Position numbers and translations under genes: made by a program. Below are positions 5,989 to 50,698 of a stretch of 61,623 bases of DNA, one piece after another. Source of the stretch: an uncultured Chloroflexota bacterium (GTDB taxonomy: Bacteria > Chloroflexota > Chloroflexia > Chloroflexales > Chloroflexaceae); NCBI GenBank assembly GCA_937120965.1, contig CAKZKA010000236.1:1-61623 (forward strand), written 5' to 3'. Below the pieces are notes generated by a model that searched no databases, had not been told where the DNA came from, and saw only the letters and a program-made list of their open reading frames with translations. Position 1 is the first letter of the stretch, and each line of letters starts with the position of its first letter.

Positions 5989-6098
5989 CGCAGCGGCGCT
6001 GCGCCTCCACCGCAGCGGCGCTGCGCCTCCACCGCAGCGGCGCTGCGCCTCTACCGCAGCGGCGCTGCGCCTCTACCGCAGCGGCGCTGCGCCTCCAC
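5989..6098. repeat. Five tandem 22-bp hairpin repeats after dnaG
   Basis: Five head-to-tail copies of a 22-bp unit, CGCAGCGGCGCTGCGCCTCC plus AC, begin four bases after the dnaG stop. Each unit contains an inverted repeat, CGCAGC-GGC-GCTGCG, and the first is extended to a 9-bp stem by the preceding AGG. There is one variable position (C or T) per unit. Placed directly behind a gene, the array could fold into serial hairpins that slow polymerase or protect the 3' end of the dnaG message, but there is no T tract. It may equally be a slippage-prone neutral minisatellite. Confidence 0.9.
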
Positions 6099-6138
6099 CA
6101 CGGGGCTACGCCTTCCCCAACCCTTCAGGGAGGGGTAC

Positions 6139-12814: not shown

Positions 12815-12832
12815 TGCTCGAAATATCAACCA

Positions 12833-12930
12833 AGCTCGGGGGGCCAGGAGAGCCTGGCTGAGATTGCGGACCGACTGATGCCGCTGACCCGTAGAACCTG
12901 ACCTGGGTCATACCAGCGTAGGGAAGCGCC
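12833..12930 (+). promoter_or_regulatory. TPP riboswitch (THI element)
   Basis: The two conserved TPP-binding segments are both present: GGCTGAGAT at about 12855-12863, the core of the pyrimidine-sensing arm, and GAACCTGACCTGGG at about 12895-12908 followed by ACCAGCGTAGGGAAG, the pyrophosphate-sensing arm and closing helix. This class turns expression off when thiamine pyrophosphate is plentiful. A terminator follows at once and the downstream genes encode a thiamine-type transporter, which makes the assignment secure. Confidence 0.95.
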
Positions 12931-12945
12931 AGCAGCCCTCCTGTG

Positions 12946-30052: not shown

Positions 30053-30130
30053 TGTGAGCGTATGGGGAAACCGGGTTTCCCCACCTGCGGTGAGCCTGTC
30101 GAACCGTACCCCTCCCAGCAGGTAGGGGTC

Positions 30131-30345
30131 GGGAGGGCGCAGCCCTCCCAGGAAACAACCCGCCAGCGGGGAGGGTTTGGGAGGGCGCAGCCCTCCCAGA
30201 AAACAACCCGCCAGCGGGGAGGGTTTGGGAGGGCGCAGCCCTCCCAGGAAACAACCCGCCAGCGGGGAGGGCTTGGGAGGGCGCAGCCCTCCCAGGAAAC
30301 AACCCGCCAGCGGGAGGGTTTGGGAGGGCGCAGCCCTCCCAGGAA
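30131..30345. repeat. 48-bp tandem array of the GGGAGGG palindrome
   Basis: Units start at 30131, 30179, 30227 and 30275 (48-bp period) with a truncated fifth at 30322. Each unit has the perfect palindrome GGGAGGGCGCAGCCCTCCC, then a GGAAACAACCCGCCAGCGGG spacer and a GAGGGTTTG tail. The array directly follows miaB, after a GGGGAAACC palindrome at 30063-30081. Units differ at only a few bases, so the expansion is recent. It ends in an AT linker and the TTGTGCGCCATGCGCA module (about 30368-30385). Confidence 0.9.
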
Positions 30346-34832: not shown

Positions 34833-34859
34833 TGTTGTGTGTGTTGAGTGCACGAGCGT

Positions 34860-36344
34860 ATGCAACCTCCTGCCAATCGCGTAATTGTGGTGGGCGCCGG
34901 CCTCGGTGGCCTGGCCGCCGCCATCCGCCTGGCCACCGCTGGTCGCCAGGTCATCGTGCTGGAGAAAAACGAGCGGGTGGGCGGTAAACTCAACCTCCTG
35001 CGCGAAGCCGGCTATACCTTCGACACCGGCCCTTCGCTGCTCACCATGCCCTGGGTGATCGACGAGTTGTTTGCCGCCGCCGGCCGCCGCATGGCCGATT
35101 ACCTCACCCTCGAGCAGATCGAGCCGACCTGCCGCTACCAGTGGCCCGACGGCACAACCTTCAACGCCTGGCAACGCCTGCCCCAACTGATCCAGGAGAT
35201 CGAACGCCTCAGCCCGCCCGATGTGCCGGCGTTCTTTCGCTTTCTGGCCCATACGGCACGGATCTACGACGCCGTTGCCGATGTCTTCCTGCTGAAACCC
35301 TTTGATGGGCCACGCGAACTGCTCCGGCCCCGCCTCCTCCGCGACGGCCCGGCCATTGACGCCCTGCGCAGCGTTGACGCCGCCGTGCGCTCGTTCTTCC
35401 GTAGCCCCTACCTCCGACAGGTCTTCAACCGGTATGCCACCTACAACGGCTCGTCGCCCTACATCTCGCCTGCGACCTTCAACGTCATTGCCTACATCGA
35501 GTTCGCCGAGGGCGGCTGGTACGTGCGTGGCGGGATGTACACCCTGGCCCGCGCCCTGCTGGGCCTGGCCACCGAACTCGGGGTAGAGGTGCGCACCAGC
35601 GCCCCGGTGGTCGCAGTGGAGACCAGTGGTCGCTGTGTACAGGGGGTACGCCTGGCCAGCGGCGAGGAGCTGACCGCCGCTCAGGTGTTGATCAACGCCG
35701 ACCCGGGCTACGCCTACCGCGTCCTCGTTCCCGGCCAGGAGGCCGTGGCCGCGCGTCTGGCCCGGCAGGAGATCTCCTGCAGTGGCTTCGTGCTCTTCCT
35801 CGGGGTGAACCGGCGCTACCCGCAACTGGCCCACCACAATATCTTCTTCAGCAGCGACTACCCCCGCGAGTTTGCGGCCATCTTTCAGAAAGGCGTTCCC
35901 GCTGCCGACCCGACGATCTACGTGGCCGCCACGGCCCTGACCGATCCCGAGCACGCTCCGCCCGGCCATCTCAACCTGTTCGTGCTGGTGAACGCCCCGA
36001 CGCTCAATCCTCGCGTGTGCTGGAGCCGCGAGGCGCGCCCCTACCGCGACAGCATCGTGGCCAAACTGGAGCGTATGGGCCTGACTGACCTCAACCGCCA
36101 TATCGTTTACGAGCAGATCTGGACGCCGGAGGACATCGCCGGGCGCTACAACGCCCCGGGCGGCGCCATCTACGGCTGGGCCTCGCATTCGCCCTTCAGC
36201 GCCTTCTTTCGCCCACCCCAGCGCGCTCGCGCCCTCCGCGGCCTCTACTTCGTCGGGGGCGGCACCCACCCCGGGGGTGGCATTCCGCTCGTGCTTCTCT
36301 CCGGGCGCGCCGTGGCCGAGCGCATCGTCGCCGACAGCAGATAA
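34860..36344 (+). CDS. CrtI-type carotenoid desaturase/oxidase
   Basis: A 494-residue FAD enzyme of the phytoene desaturase family. The N-terminal dinucleotide-binding motif is VVVGAGLGGLAAAIRLA with the acidic residue in VLEKNERVGGKLN, followed by FDTGPSLLTMP. The C-terminal signature GLYFVGGGTHPGGGIPLVLLSGR closes the FAD site. The family desaturates phytoene or its C30 analogue, or oxidises carotenoid ends; which reaction applies cannot be told here, and no crtB or other pigment gene is adjacent. A GTG at 34848 is an alternative start; neither has a strong ribosome site. Carotenoid synthesis fits a filamentous phototroph or pigmented relative. Confidence 0.9.
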   Translation: MQPPANRVIVVGAGLGGLAAAIRLATAGRQVIVLEKNERVGGKLNLLREAGYTFDTGPSLLTMPWVIDELFAAAGRRMADYLTLEQIEPTCRYQWPDGTTFNAWQRLPQLIQEIERLSPPDVPAFFRFLAHTARIYDAVADVFLLKPFDGPRELLRPRLLRDGPAIDALRSVDAAVRSFFRSPYLRQVFNRYATYNGSSPYISPATFNVIAYIEFAEGGWYVRGGMYTLARALLGLATELGVEVRTSAPVVAVETSGRCVQGVRLASGEELTAAQVLINADPGYAYRVLVPGQEAVAARLARQEISCSGFVLFLGVNRRYPQLAHHNIFFSSDYPREFAAIFQKGVPAADPTIYVAATALTDPEHAPPGHLNLFVLVNAPTLNPRVCWSREARPYRDSIVAKLERMGLTDLNRHIVYEQIWTPEDIAGRYNAPGGAIYGWASHSPFSAFFRPPQRARALRGLYFVGGGTHPGGGIPLVLLSGRAVAERIVADSR

Positions 36345-36494
36345 CCGGGCGCCAGCATCGGACGACGAGCCTCTCTCGAAAACTCTTTACACCTTACCGG
36401 CCTATTCTTCGTATCAAAAAGTGCAAACCCCCGCACCTCAAGCCCATGAAACGCCTTTGCGAGCCTCTATTATCGTTAAGATACGATTAACCTC

Positions 36495-36523
36495 TTGATT
36501 CTTGGGCCTTAAAATGCTATGAT
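36495..36523 (+). promoter_or_regulatory. Promoter of the orphan RNA
   Basis: TTGATT (36495-36500) and TATGAT (36518-36523) are exactly 17 bases apart, inside an AT-rich stretch that stands out from the genome average. This is among the best sigma-70-like matches in the window, and no open reading frame follows it. Confidence 0.7.
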
Positions 36524-36529
36524 AGCGCC

Positions 36530-37120
36530 GAAGCCTCAAGGGAACAGCAACGCACCAGAGTACCTGAACAGTCGAAAACGCGCCGTCACCAGACAAGCGC
36601 CATTCTCTCACTGTAAAGAAAAAGAGTGCACTTGGAGAGAATGAGCGTGCGTTAGGGGAAATGGAACGCTACCGTGTAACGTTCCAGGGAGACTAACAGA
36701 CAAGCGCCGGATCGCTGACTGAGCGATCGGATGCTCTGCGAGTTGCGGGATGGCCTCTCCACGCAAAGCTCAACGCGTGTGGACAGGAGGAACTTGTTAC
36801 CCACGCAAAAGCCAGGAGCCATACCCAAAGGCAAAAGCTGGCACGGCAAAGCGCCACACATGCGTGCGCCGAAAGCAGAGCAGCCGAGGGTCTGCGTAGA
36901 GATAAGTAGACTGAAAGGGCTACTCGCTGGAGTTGCCAGACCCTTGAGGCCCGAATCTGGGGAATGGTACGTGTCGGTAACCTAGCAGGAACTGTACGCT
37001 CGTTCGGTAACCTTATCGGGAACTGTACGCTCGTTCGGTAACCTATCAGGAACACACGTTGCTGGGTCATGGTTCATGCAGGGCCGGAGGGTTTACCTTC
37101 CGGCCGTTGCGTTTGTTGTT
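36530..37120 (+). ncRNA. Candidate orphan structured non-coding RNA
   Basis: Between the promoter at 36495 and a terminator at 37082 lie about 550 bases with no convincing protein. Many local stems are visible: ATTCTCTC/GAGAGAAT (36602-36609 with 36635-36642), GGAACG/CGTTCC (36663-36668 with 36680-36685), GATCGCT/AGCGATC (36710-36716 with 36722-36728). CAGACAAGCGCC occurs twice (36590 and 36697). Near the 3' end a 30-31-base unit, CGGTAACCTAGCAGGAACTG plus TACGCTCGTT, repeats at 36975, 37005 and, shortened, 37036. The base composition is more balanced than neighbouring genes and rich in A-rich loops. It does not match RNase P, tmRNA, SRP or 6S RNA cores that I know. Function unknown. Confidence 0.55.
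37082..37120 (+). terminator. Terminator of the orphan RNA
   Basis: GGCCGGA (37082-37088) pairs with TCCGGCC (37099-37105); three further inner pairs leave a TTTA tetraloop. GTTGCGTTTGTTGTT follows. This is a strong rho-independent terminator with no gene ending just before it, so it supports a transcript from the 36495 promoter. Confidence 0.8.
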
Positions 37121-37175
37121 GTAGACGAAGCCGCCCGGACGGCAGACATACAAATGGCGTCGGCGTCATCGCCAC

Positions 37176-37217
37176 CGCGCCCCGGTTCTACACAGCGTCG
37201 TGTAGAATCGGGGCGCG
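37176..37217. repeat. Long inverted repeat downstream of fabD
   Basis: CGCGCCCCGGTTCTACAC (37176-37193) pairs with GTGTAGAATCGGGGCGCG (37200-37217) over 18 positions with one mismatch and a 6-base loop. It lies between the orphan RNA and the end of fabD, which converge here. It could be a shared transcription barrier. A short T-rich stretch follows on the plus strand only. Confidence 0.75.
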
Positions 37218-37266
37218 TTCTTGTTGACCGCGGAGAAACCCGGGTTCACCATAGATGCAGATCGCC

Positions 37267-38217
37267 TTACTCGACGCGCACCTCGCGCACCTCGGCGGCA
37301 CTGCCGATGCTCAGCGCCTGCGCCTGCGGCGCGATGCGCCGGATCAGACCACTCAGGACCTTGCCGGGGCCGATTTCCAGAAAGGTCGTTACCCCATCAC
37401 GCGCCATGCGCTGCACCGAGGCAATCCAGCGCACCGGCGCCACCACCTGCGCCACCAGTTCACGCCGCACCTCGCCAGGGGCCACCAGCGGCTCGGCGGT
37501 GACGTTGGCGATCAGCGGTGTCCGCAGCGGCTGGATGGTCGCGGCCTCTATCGCCCGGGCCATCCCCTCAGCAGCCTGGCGCATCAGTGGTGAATGGAAG
37601 GCCGCGCTCACCTTGAGCGGAACGACCCGCCTGGCGCCCCGCTGTTTCGCCAGACGCCCCGCATGCTCAACCGCGCGTGTGGCGCCACTGATCACCAGTT
37701 GATCAGGAGCATTGTAGTTCGCCACCACCACGCTGCTGATACTCGCTGGATCCTCCGCCAGCGCCTCGTTCGTTTCACGGCAGACCTGCTCCAGGGTTTC
37801 GACGTCCAGGCCCAGCACCGCCGCCATACCTCCAGCCCCGGCTTCGGCCATCAACTCGCCGCGCCGCCGCACGAGTCGCAGCGCCTCAGCGAAGCTCAAC
37901 GCGCCGCCAGCAACCAGCGCCGCGTACTCGCCGAGACTGTGCCCGGCCACGGCGCGCGGGAGAGGCAGCGGCCGTCCCGCAGCACTCTCCATGGCCCGCA
38001 ACAGCGCGGTGCTGACGGTGAGCAGGGCTGGCTGCACGTTCTCGGTCGCCGTCAACTCGGCCTCAGGTCCCTCGAAACACAACCGGGTGAGGGGCAGTTT
38101 CAGCGTCGCGTCGGCCTCCTCGAACACGTCGCGCGCCGCAGGGAACGCAGCGTAGACATCGCGGCCCATCCCCACCACTTGCGATCCCTGACCCGGAAAT
38201 ACCCACGCAATGGTCAT
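37267..38217 (-). CDS. fabD: Malonyl-CoA:ACP transacylase
   Basis: A 316-residue enzyme that moves malonyl groups from CoA to acyl carrier protein for fatty-acid synthesis. The nucleophile Ser94 lies in GHSLGEYAAL and the catalytic His208 in AAFHSPLM; VFPGQGSQ at 6-13 forms the oxyanion hole. I chose ATG 38217, which gives the normal MTIAWVFPGQGSQ start. It is the last gene of a minus-strand cluster yceD-rpmF-fabH-fabD, the classic plsX-fab arrangement minus plsX. Confidence 0.95.
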   Translation of the reverse strand: MTIAWVFPGQGSQVVGMGRDVYAAFPAARDVFEEADATLKLPLTRLCFEGPEAELTATENVQPALLTVSTALLRAMESAAGRPLPLPRAVAGHSLGEYAALVAGGALSFAEALRLVRRRGELMAEAGAGGMAAVLGLDVETLEQVCRETNEALAEDPASISSVVVANYNAPDQLVISGATRAVEHAGRLAKQRGARRVVPLKVSAAFHSPLMRQAAEGMARAIEAATIQPLRTPLIANVTAEPLVAPGEVRRELVAQVVAPVRWIASVQRMARDGVTTFLEIGPGKVLSGLIRRIAPQAQALSIGSAAEVREVRVE

Positions 38218-38356
38218 AGGCTTCTGTACTCTCCCTGGTGCAATTGCAGCTTGCAGATTTGCGATTGGAGATTGGGCATGGCGCATCTGGACGCGGTCAA
38301 CGTCGCGCTGATGCCCAGGCAGGTCGCCTGGAGGTGGGCCGGGGAGCGCGCCGTGG

Positions 38357-50410: not shown

Positions 50411-50520
50411 CGTGGCATGTTCCTCGCTCACCACGCGCCCCTGGAGGCGCGCGGTAAGGTGTTGACAGTTCCCTGCGGGGCGGTGGTGGAGCGGGCTCCT
50501 CTCCTGCCCCTCTTGCGTGT

Positions 50521-50698
50521 GAAGGGCGTGCCTCCCCGCCCACCGGATGAACTCAGGTTGCTTCCCGGAAGGGCGTAGCCCTCTCAAACCCTCCCGGTGC
50601 GAAGGGCGTGCCTCCCCGCCCACCGGATGAACTCAGGTTGCTTCCCGGGAGGGCGCAGCCCTCTCAAACCCTCCCGGTGCGAAGGGCGTGCCTCCCCG
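50521..50698. repeat. 80-bp tandem repeat between rplO and secY
   Basis: An 80-bp unit starting GAAGGGCGTGCCTCCCCGCC occurs at 50521-50600 and 50601-50680, nearly identical, with the start of a third copy at 50681-50698. The unit contains the CCCGGGAGGGCGCAGCCCTC part of the dispersed palindrome. It splits the spc operon just before secY. A GGGGAACCCCGG palindrome remnant follows (about 50712-50730). No gene is seen between 50411 and 50742. Confidence 0.9.

Follow-up and report, generated by a model that had tools for sequence, protein, structure and literature searches.

A candidate large structured noncoding RNA with its own promoter and operator-like site in the order of Chloroflexus and Roseiflexus

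The window (i.e., the whole stretch of 61,623 nucleotides [nt] analyzed here) contains what is, by appearance, an autonomous noncoding gene at positions 36472-37110, between a carotenoid gene of the crtI family and fabD. The upstream neighbor on the plus strand (34848-36344) matches the phytoene desaturase family TIGR02734 (447 bits, cutoff 238), and the convergent downstream neighbor on the minus strand (37267-38286) is fabD (TIGR00128, 329 bits, cutoff 261), in agreement with the original prediction, which had placed an orphan RNA gene between a carotenoid gene and the fab genes. That prediction had also proposed a sigma-70-like promoter, and we could corroborate it at 36495-36523 on the plus strand (TTGATT-17-TATGAT), with an extended -10 element (TGCTATGAT; TG before the -10); promoter-like sites between 35500 and 38000 exceeded those in shuffled sequences (3 versus 0.4 ± 0.8). 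Upstream of the -35 element lies a feature that the original prediction had left unreported, namely an operator-like palindrome on the same strand (ATCGTTAAGATACGAT, 36472-36487) of the general form ATCGTNAA-N4-CGAT, centered ~50 bases upstream of the predicted start. The predicted noncoding transcript, backed by homologs, covariation, and identity to congeners, has putative ends at 36530 and 37110 on the plus strand and comprises a body (36533-36950) and a 3' tail.

The 3' tail carries 31-nt tandem repeats (36974-37053, plus strand, 2.6 copies). A unit of 30-31 bases repeated about three times had been noted previously, and the tandem unit is indeed real, but it is only a variable feature of the tail: the array shows no folding advantage over shuffled versions of itself (z = -0.87), and the number of GTACG-type motifs ranges from 1 to 3 across the five species of the genus, the motif being seen in several other genera as well. 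Elsewhere in the window, tandem arrays occupy 207-936, 5989-6099, 30115-30345, and 50517-50698 (periods of 274, 22, 48, and 80 bases, respectively, with copies matching at 95-97%); the 48- and 80-base units have GGGCGCAGCCCTC in common, and the 274- and 80-base units contain AAACCCTCCCG. As to the intrinsic terminator proposed for this gene, a plus-strand terminator-like hairpin with a 10-bp stem is present at 37082-37105 (z = -6.3), but its U-tract is poor (GTTGCGTTTG) and it is one of two candidates, the other being an 18-bp hairpin at 37176-37217, between the RNA gene and convergent fabD, which has the stronger stem and is 73% identical to congeners. Terminator-like sites showed no clear excess over shuffles (3 versus 1.4 ± 1.2).

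To delimit the gene, we rely on the identity between the window and four congeners. The operator is 97% identical and the spacer before it 67%. Downstream, identity is 100% in both strands of the helix that closes the body (P1), 85-91% in the RNA body between these strands, 73-89% in the 3' tail (the repeat part being the lowest of the predicted transcript, at 73%), and 88% in the hairpin at 37082, and it drops to 37% just past 37106. Thus, the operator and the terminator-like hairpin bound the conserved stretch, and so delimit the predicted gene.

Open reading frames (ORFs) in this region reach 84 amino acids (aa) on the plus strand and 125 aa on the minus strand, and these two longest ORFs had no match in Pfam. 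Stops interrupt the 125-aa ORF in all four congeners. The 84-aa ORF is represented by two overlapping pieces (i.e., a frame change) in three of the four, one with a stop, and in the fourth congener it is 47% identical, where crtI is 83% identical (83-93% across congeners). A 57-aa minus-strand ORF over the promoter is open along its full length in three congeners and has a stop in the fourth; likewise, a 69-aa minus-strand ORF has two stop-free pieces in three congeners and a stop in the fourth. Openness of the 57- and 69-aa ORFs in three of four congeners is what a conserved RNA and promoter would also yield. The earlier view that no plausible protein is encoded here is therefore upheld by the longer ORFs, which are broken or shifted in the four congeners and lack Pfam matches, and the conserved reading frame that was named as grounds for rejecting an RNA did not appear among them.

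Folding of the 588-nt strand yields -232.6 kcal/mol (z = -3.9), a value that none of 100 shuffles equalled. Its ~420-nt body is closed by a 10-bp long-range helix, P1, between the 5' strand GCCTCAAGGG (36533-36542) and the 3' strand CCCTTGAGGC (36941-36950), in which 98.5% of cells are paired in 27 sequences and two pairs covary (coordinates of this and all following helices refer to the plus strand). P2 (36569-36573/36909-36913), with three of five pairs covarying and 76% of cells paired, is a less certain helix. P3 (36582-36588/36748-36754), a long-range helix that encloses P4 to P6, was the top-scoring stem in a scan of alignment column pairs, with covariation in six of its seven pairs and 92.6% pairing. 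The 12-base direct repeat CAGACAAGCGCC that had been pointed out before is found at 36590-36601 and 36697-36708, where its two copies form the basal 5' strands of hairpins P4 and P6, respectively. More specifically, the conserved part of the first copy, CAAGCG, lies at the base of P4; the second copy lies on the 5' side of P6, with AAGCGC invariant in the 27 rows of alignment A3 (described below), and AAGCG is invariant at both places in these rows (L029, outside A3, has CAAACG in the second copy). P4 is only 70% paired, again a less certain helix, and its apical part displays UGUAA, which hardly varies, if at all, among the 27 Chloroflexaceae-type A3 rows.

Pairing of P5 (GUUAG; 36651-36655/36693-36697) is complete in 34 sequences, with four of five pairs covarying, in the variants GUUAG/CUAAC, GUCAG/CUGAC, GUUCG/CGAAC, GUCGA/UCGAC, and AUCGG/CCGAU. 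Between P5 and hairpin P5a (36662-36686; all four counted pairs covary, 94.4% paired) there is a conserved internal loop, GGGGAAA/GGGAGA. The P6 hairpin (36703-36735; AGCGCC-G-GAUCGCU/AGCGAUCGG-A-UGCU) is 99.7% paired, with six of 13 pairs covarying and seven never varying. Two further helices follow, P7 (GCGUG/CACGC, 36775-36779/36802-36806; four of five pairs covary, 91.9% paired) and P8 (CGG/CCG, 36844-36846/36869-36871; three of three pairs covary, 87.7% paired). An unproven candidate helix, GAG/CUC (36740-36771), would form a pseudoknot with P3; it is 92.6% paired and has zero covariation. The original prediction had emphasized many local hairpins; the hallmark of the RNA gene is instead its long-range architecture, together with the conserved operator-like palindrome, and the two long-range helices 36533-36542/36941-36950 and 36582-36588/36748-36754 were missing from that prediction.

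Covariation was assessed in three alignments. A3 consists of 27 full-length sequences out of 35 trimmed ones (omitting L026, L028, L029, L030, L047, L051, L058, and L075), the truncated L052, L064, and L065 having been dropped beforehand. Under a 58-pair model, 93.1% of A3 cells are paired versus 83.4% in shuffled and 28-40% in slid controls, 30 of the 58 pairs have changed on both sides, and the covariation score is 0.374 versus 0.180 (shuffled) and ≤0.095 (slid); part of this helix set was picked from the column-pair scan of the same alignment, and control (b) thereby favors the model. In A1, a 34-sequence core from 34 loci (omitting far-diverged, truncated and some near-duplicate loci), a 28-pair model gave 90.1% pairing versus 78.3% (shuffled) and 26-42% (slid), with 17 of 28 pairs changed on both sides. 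The corresponding count was 23 of 28 in A2 (35 sequences, including distant families and a second RNA class), an alignment that was fitted to the structure of covariance model R1 and is hence biased towards it. Covariation, which the original prediction had proposed to test in three hairpins, was found among relatives in A1, A2, and A3. These comparisons support the proposed fold, and a secondary structure backed by covariation, without a conserved reading frame, would place the element among large structured noncoding RNAs.

When the element was compared by BLASTN to 61 genomes, 28 of them gave convincing matches (E ≤ 1e-4; the number rises to 60 when every match up to E = 10 is counted); there was a single match in the window's own genome (G000), where the other nine BLASTN hits had E values of 0.96 or worse. 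We also scanned a strict core pattern across 84,980 species, with one genome per species, and obtained 28 stretches, 27 of which are from Chloroflexota, including Chloroflexus islandicus, Candidatus Chloroploca asiatica and mongolica, Oscillochloris species, and a Kouleothrix metagenome-assembled genome. One stretch labelled Candidatus Gracilibacteria (L051/L107) has the RNA sequence of G020, a genome of the window's own family, and is probably mislabelled. Of 82 genomes from the order to which Chloroflexus and Roseiflexus belong, covariance model R2 matched 51; rows of R2 had come from 31 of these, and the other 20 had supplied none. By family, these matches amount to 35 of 41 genomes in the window's family (f1), 5 of 6 in f2, 1 of 9 in f3, and 10 of 26 in f4, which is presumably the Roseiflexus family; among individual genomes, we take G031 to be C. 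aurantiacus J-10-fl and G042 to be Roseiflexus sp. RS-1. The RNA body of G031 maps to the minus strand at C1:3235911-3236331. Model R1 matched 46 of 158 genomes of the class, every one in this order, and R2 found 31 matches in 400 genomes of the phylum, 30 of them in the same order. The remaining match (G484, E of 7e-4), outside the order, falls within a transporter gene, whose ORF matches MFS_1 at 157 bits, and was rejected. These model searches were run with stricter filters, at the cost of some weak matches. The limited distribution that had been suspected for this RNA agrees with R1, R2, and the strict pattern scan of 84,980 species, all of which point to one order, to which the RNA looks confined.

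The RNA is absent, or diverged past detection, in 31 of the 82 genomes of the order, and thus seems dispensable in those genomes. Comparison with the reaction center family PF00124 in the same 82 genomes yielded 42 with both, nine with only the RNA, 21 with only the reaction center, and 10 with neither. Of the RNA-only genomes, G006, G046, G052, G059, and G072 are incomplete, and G037, G045, and G049 are 99-100% complete; the occurrence of the RNA without PF00124 in the latter three led us to reject a role dedicated to photosynthesis. Likewise, we rejected a mobile element, as plasmid records and phage records had no match to the RNA and the strict core pattern gave a single viral contig, L075. 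In this IMG/VR contig of 7104 bp, the RNA core lies near the contig end and, by eye, its 5' part, including P1, is replaced by trpC-like bacterial coding sequence; L075 is probably chimeric or miscalled, and it was retained as one row each of A1 (34) and A2 (35).

Among 61 genomes, 41 contain the pattern ATCGTNAA-N4-CGAT followed by TTGA at a distance of 5-12 bases, always as a single occurrence and never twice, versus one of 61 for a reversed control. A regular expression that combines operator and promoter matches 40 of 49 class I loci (i.e., loci with the RNA described above); the -10 is irregular in L110 and L113, and some of the misses are visible variants, e.g., TTGC in place of TTGA in L009 and L010. 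We fetched 17 places with the operator pattern, one of which (L116) is the same place in the same genome as L030. Fourteen of the 17 match model R1 (32-116 bits, E ≤ 7e-8), six of these (L116-L121) having helped to build R1 and eight not. L109 and L110 display the operator pattern and, by eye, the start of P1, and score only 13.0 and 16.4 bits with R1; we regard them as probable members of the RNA family. The operator match in G058 (L122) was rejected as a chance match, since no RNA is recognizable nearby by eye and the genome is negative with model R2. As none of these 61 genomes has more than one site of the operator consensus with TTGA, a regulator of the palindrome may lack other strong sites or possess just a few.

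Of 50 class I loci, 43 have a crtI homolog that precedes the RNA on its own strand, in Chloroflexus-type and Roseiflexus-type genomes alike, and the convergent downstream neighbor varies, being fabD in some loci and a gene of the SDR family (FabG-like) in others. At the seven other loci (L008, L016, L017, L108, L109, L110, and L111), the examined stretch yielded no crtI, and the operator pattern and RNA nonetheless persist, with a weak RNA match in L109 and L110. The shared neighborhood therefore looks like ancestral gene order rather than a link in cis.

Six f4 genomes gave a second, weaker match to R1 and R2 beside the class I RNA, and in a seventh f4 genome, G054, it is the sole match. These class II RNAs are 336-351 nt long, versus about 380-430 nt for class I, and their loci (L153-L159; G042:C1 at about 3251411-3251745 and equivalents) adjoin an SDR gene. 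They possess their own P1 (closing helix GCCCUG/CAGGGC) and, by eye, a different promoter of the TTGTAA-TATACT type. Their core is as in class I (i.e., CAAGCG, P4, CGUAAG, P5 with GGGAAA/GGGGAGA, and P6), and it is enclosed by a long-range helix in the P3 position (e.g., GCACCUGGC/GCCAGGUGC) that differs in sequence from its class I counterpart, which supports the architecture. Both classes keep conserved unpaired nucleotides in the internal loop of P5, as well as conserved nucleotides at the base of each of the hairpins P4 and P6, which suggests tertiary, protein-binding or catalytic roles.

We compared the window with all 4227 models of Rfam 15 at gathering thresholds, and positions 36300-37300 at E values up to 5. 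At gathering thresholds, no model matched the RNA locus, the only matches being a TPP riboswitch and tRNA elsewhere in the window; the TPP riboswitch lies at 12827-12941 (67.8 bits). At E values up to 5, the interval 36300-37300 gave one chance match, to Xoo5 (14.7 bits, cutoff 50, E of 4.3). Similarly, 13 homolog loci at E values up to 2 gave five weak matches below cutoff, to microRNA or snoRNA families, and four class II loci gave none. The search of every Rfam model that had been recommended for this locus thus assigned no family to it or to the sampled homologs, and the reported lack of resemblance to RNase P RNA, tmRNA, SRP RNA, 6S RNA, and introns holds throughout. Rfam includes models for OLE, ROOL, GOLLD, group I and group II introns, 6S RNA, and SRP RNA. 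More specifically, OLE, ROOL, and GOLLD were without match at the locus and in the sampled homologs; 6S and SRP RNA were unmatched at the locus among the 4227 models at E values up to 5; and no group I or group II intron model matched the element, which is intergenic and has its own promoter.

Both tmRNA and RNase P RNA measure several hundred nt and, like the RNA described here, combine internal domains of several stems with a closing helix of long range. Unlike the RNA described here, which their models leave unmatched, both are found elsewhere in these genomes. The tmRNA (RF00023) of the window's genome is on another contig (G000:C111:23091-23459, 171.9 bits); RF00023 had no match at the locus, and ARAGORN found no tmRNA in eight homolog loci. 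The type A RNase P RNA model (RF00010) has matches away from our RNA in 51 of 61 genomes, with E values up to 0.1 and none reaching the family cutoff; in G002, for example, the match is on G002:C20, with the RNA of interest on G002:C21. Type B RNase P RNA (RF00011) was found in none of the 61 genomes, and the window's own genome gave no match to the type A model. The RNase P RNA of this group seems strongly diverged, as the type A cutoff was reached in none of 61 genomes. According to PMC2996960, the RNase P predictions in two Roseiflexus and in C. aggregans were only partial, in agreement with the missing or weak type A matches here.

Ornate Large Extremophilic (OLE) RNA is described as likewise a large multi-helix noncoding RNA of unsettled biochemical role from one bacterial group; unlike our RNA, which Rfam leaves unmatched, OLE measures ~600 nt, occurs mostly in Bacillota and forms a membrane ribonucleoprotein (RNP). 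ROOL and GOLLD are also large ornate bacterial RNAs, according to PMC12286853, and differ in that the RNA studied here is unmatched in Rfam and has no match among plasmid and phage records. For this group, a table of PMC2864571 names the Chloroflexi-1 and pan motifs. Chloroflexi-1 (RF01698), listed there for Chloroflexus aggregans, is similarly a candidate structured RNA; it differs in that Rfam was unmatched at our locus and in L027, which holds if RF01698 is among the 4227 models. In open PubMed Central, the titles and abstract openings of the matches listed do not report the RNA.

Taken together, we think it probable, somewhat beyond an even chance, that the locus is a gene, inherited vertically and present once in the window's genome and in most positive relatives, for a large structured noncoding RNA without an Rfam match that occurs only in the Chloroflexus/Roseiflexus order, has its own and probably regulated promoter, and acts in trans. 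The gene has homologs, covarying helices, a conserved promoter, retention beside different neighbors and a diverged second class. An uncharacterized large bacterial RNA, as originally proposed, is therefore supported by the unmatched Rfam search, the covariation in relatives, the broken longer ORFs, and the restriction to one order. That the RNA encodes a small protein, with its structure incidental, has the least to recommend it and appears hardly credible: ORFs reach 84 aa (plus) and 125 aa (minus), and those of 57 and 69 aa are open in three of four congeners, but the longer ORFs are broken in congeners, the shorter two are stopped in the fourth, the two longest are unmatched in Pfam, and 30 helix pairs covary. 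A diverged housekeeping RNA (6S, SRP, RNase P, or tmRNA) or an intron seems scarcely more credible; the size and long closing helix do recall tmRNA and RNase P RNA, and no RNase P RNA was detected in the window's own genome, yet its tmRNA is on G000:C111, type A RNase P matches lie elsewhere in 51 of 61 genomes, the element sits between genes, and Rfam gave nothing save a chance match (E of 4.3). Action in cis, as a 3' untranslated region of crtI or as antisense control of the convergent fab genes, would fit the crtI homolog that precedes the RNA, in the same orientation, in 43 of 50 class I loci. It is nevertheless very improbable, given that the RNA gene has its own conserved operator-like site and promoter, crtI was not found upstream in seven of 50 loci (in two of which the RNA match itself is weak), the gene on the downstream side varies between fabD and SDR (FabG-like), and the hairpins stop short of fabD.

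The alternatives of greater weight concern what the RNA does. As its most likely role, ahead of a ribozyme or a base-pairing regulator, we would name the core of an RNP or RNA assembly, a choice to which we give slightly less than even odds. Against it, no partner protein came to light. As a working model, such an assembly could be likened, in kind and not in family, to OLE, ROOL, and GOLLD (PMC12286853, in the part available). The main rival is a ribozyme, in which the conserved internal loop and CAAGCG strands would constitute an active site within the P3-P6 core; the compact core has unpaired bases of high conservation that both diverged classes retain, which is consistent with it, but such conservation is also usual for protein-binding RNAs and Rfam is unmatched, and we consider catalysis unlikely. 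Rather less likely still is a base-pairing small RNA, whose loop or repeat tail would pair with mRNAs such as those of fab or crt. The near-invariant UGUAA in the P4 apex (27 rows) could equally be a target pairing site, and the 3' tail has short repeats, the motif of which is present 1 to 3 times in congeners and also in several other genera; against this, the repeat part is the least conserved of the predicted transcript (73% versus 85-91% in the body), and the P4 apex differs, by eye, in more distant families.

Under our preferred reading of a trans-acting RNA, the sigma-70-type promoter would make an RNA of about 0.42-0.58 kb, with transcription predicted to run from about 36530 to about 37110, and a regulator that recognizes the palindrome preceding the -35 would probably control it. 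The RNA would then fold into a body closed by P1, inside which P3 would gather stems P4, P5, and P6 with the highly conserved CAAGCG and GGGGAAA/GGGAGA elements, and the folded RNA would work in trans. The fold is supported by comparison of sequences, and the function is inferred.

Few large structured bacterial RNAs lack a known family, and among those already described several have turned out to be essential machines or assemblies of an unexpected kind. The present RNA occurs in studied genera, i.e., Chloroflexus, Oscillochloris, and Chloroploca, and presumably also Roseiflexus. Its coordinates are exact, covariation supports its fold, its promoter looks regulated, and a diverged second class is available for comparison. 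Its operator, found at most once per genome, is a route to the regulator, and thereby to the physiological cue. More tentatively, and with somewhat more doubt than belief, we propose a new RNA superfamily of at least two classes. Class I, mostly beside crtI, would have the ATCGTNAA-N4-CGAT operator to itself, and class II would be a Roseiflexus-type paralog with a different promoter. Their common P3-P6 core would be an RNA machine (a ribozyme, or an RNA or RNP scaffold), and the operator would serve a regulator with a strict-consensus site only here. If this is true, an operator site exclusive to the RNA would point to a dedicated physiological switch in filamentous Chloroflexales.
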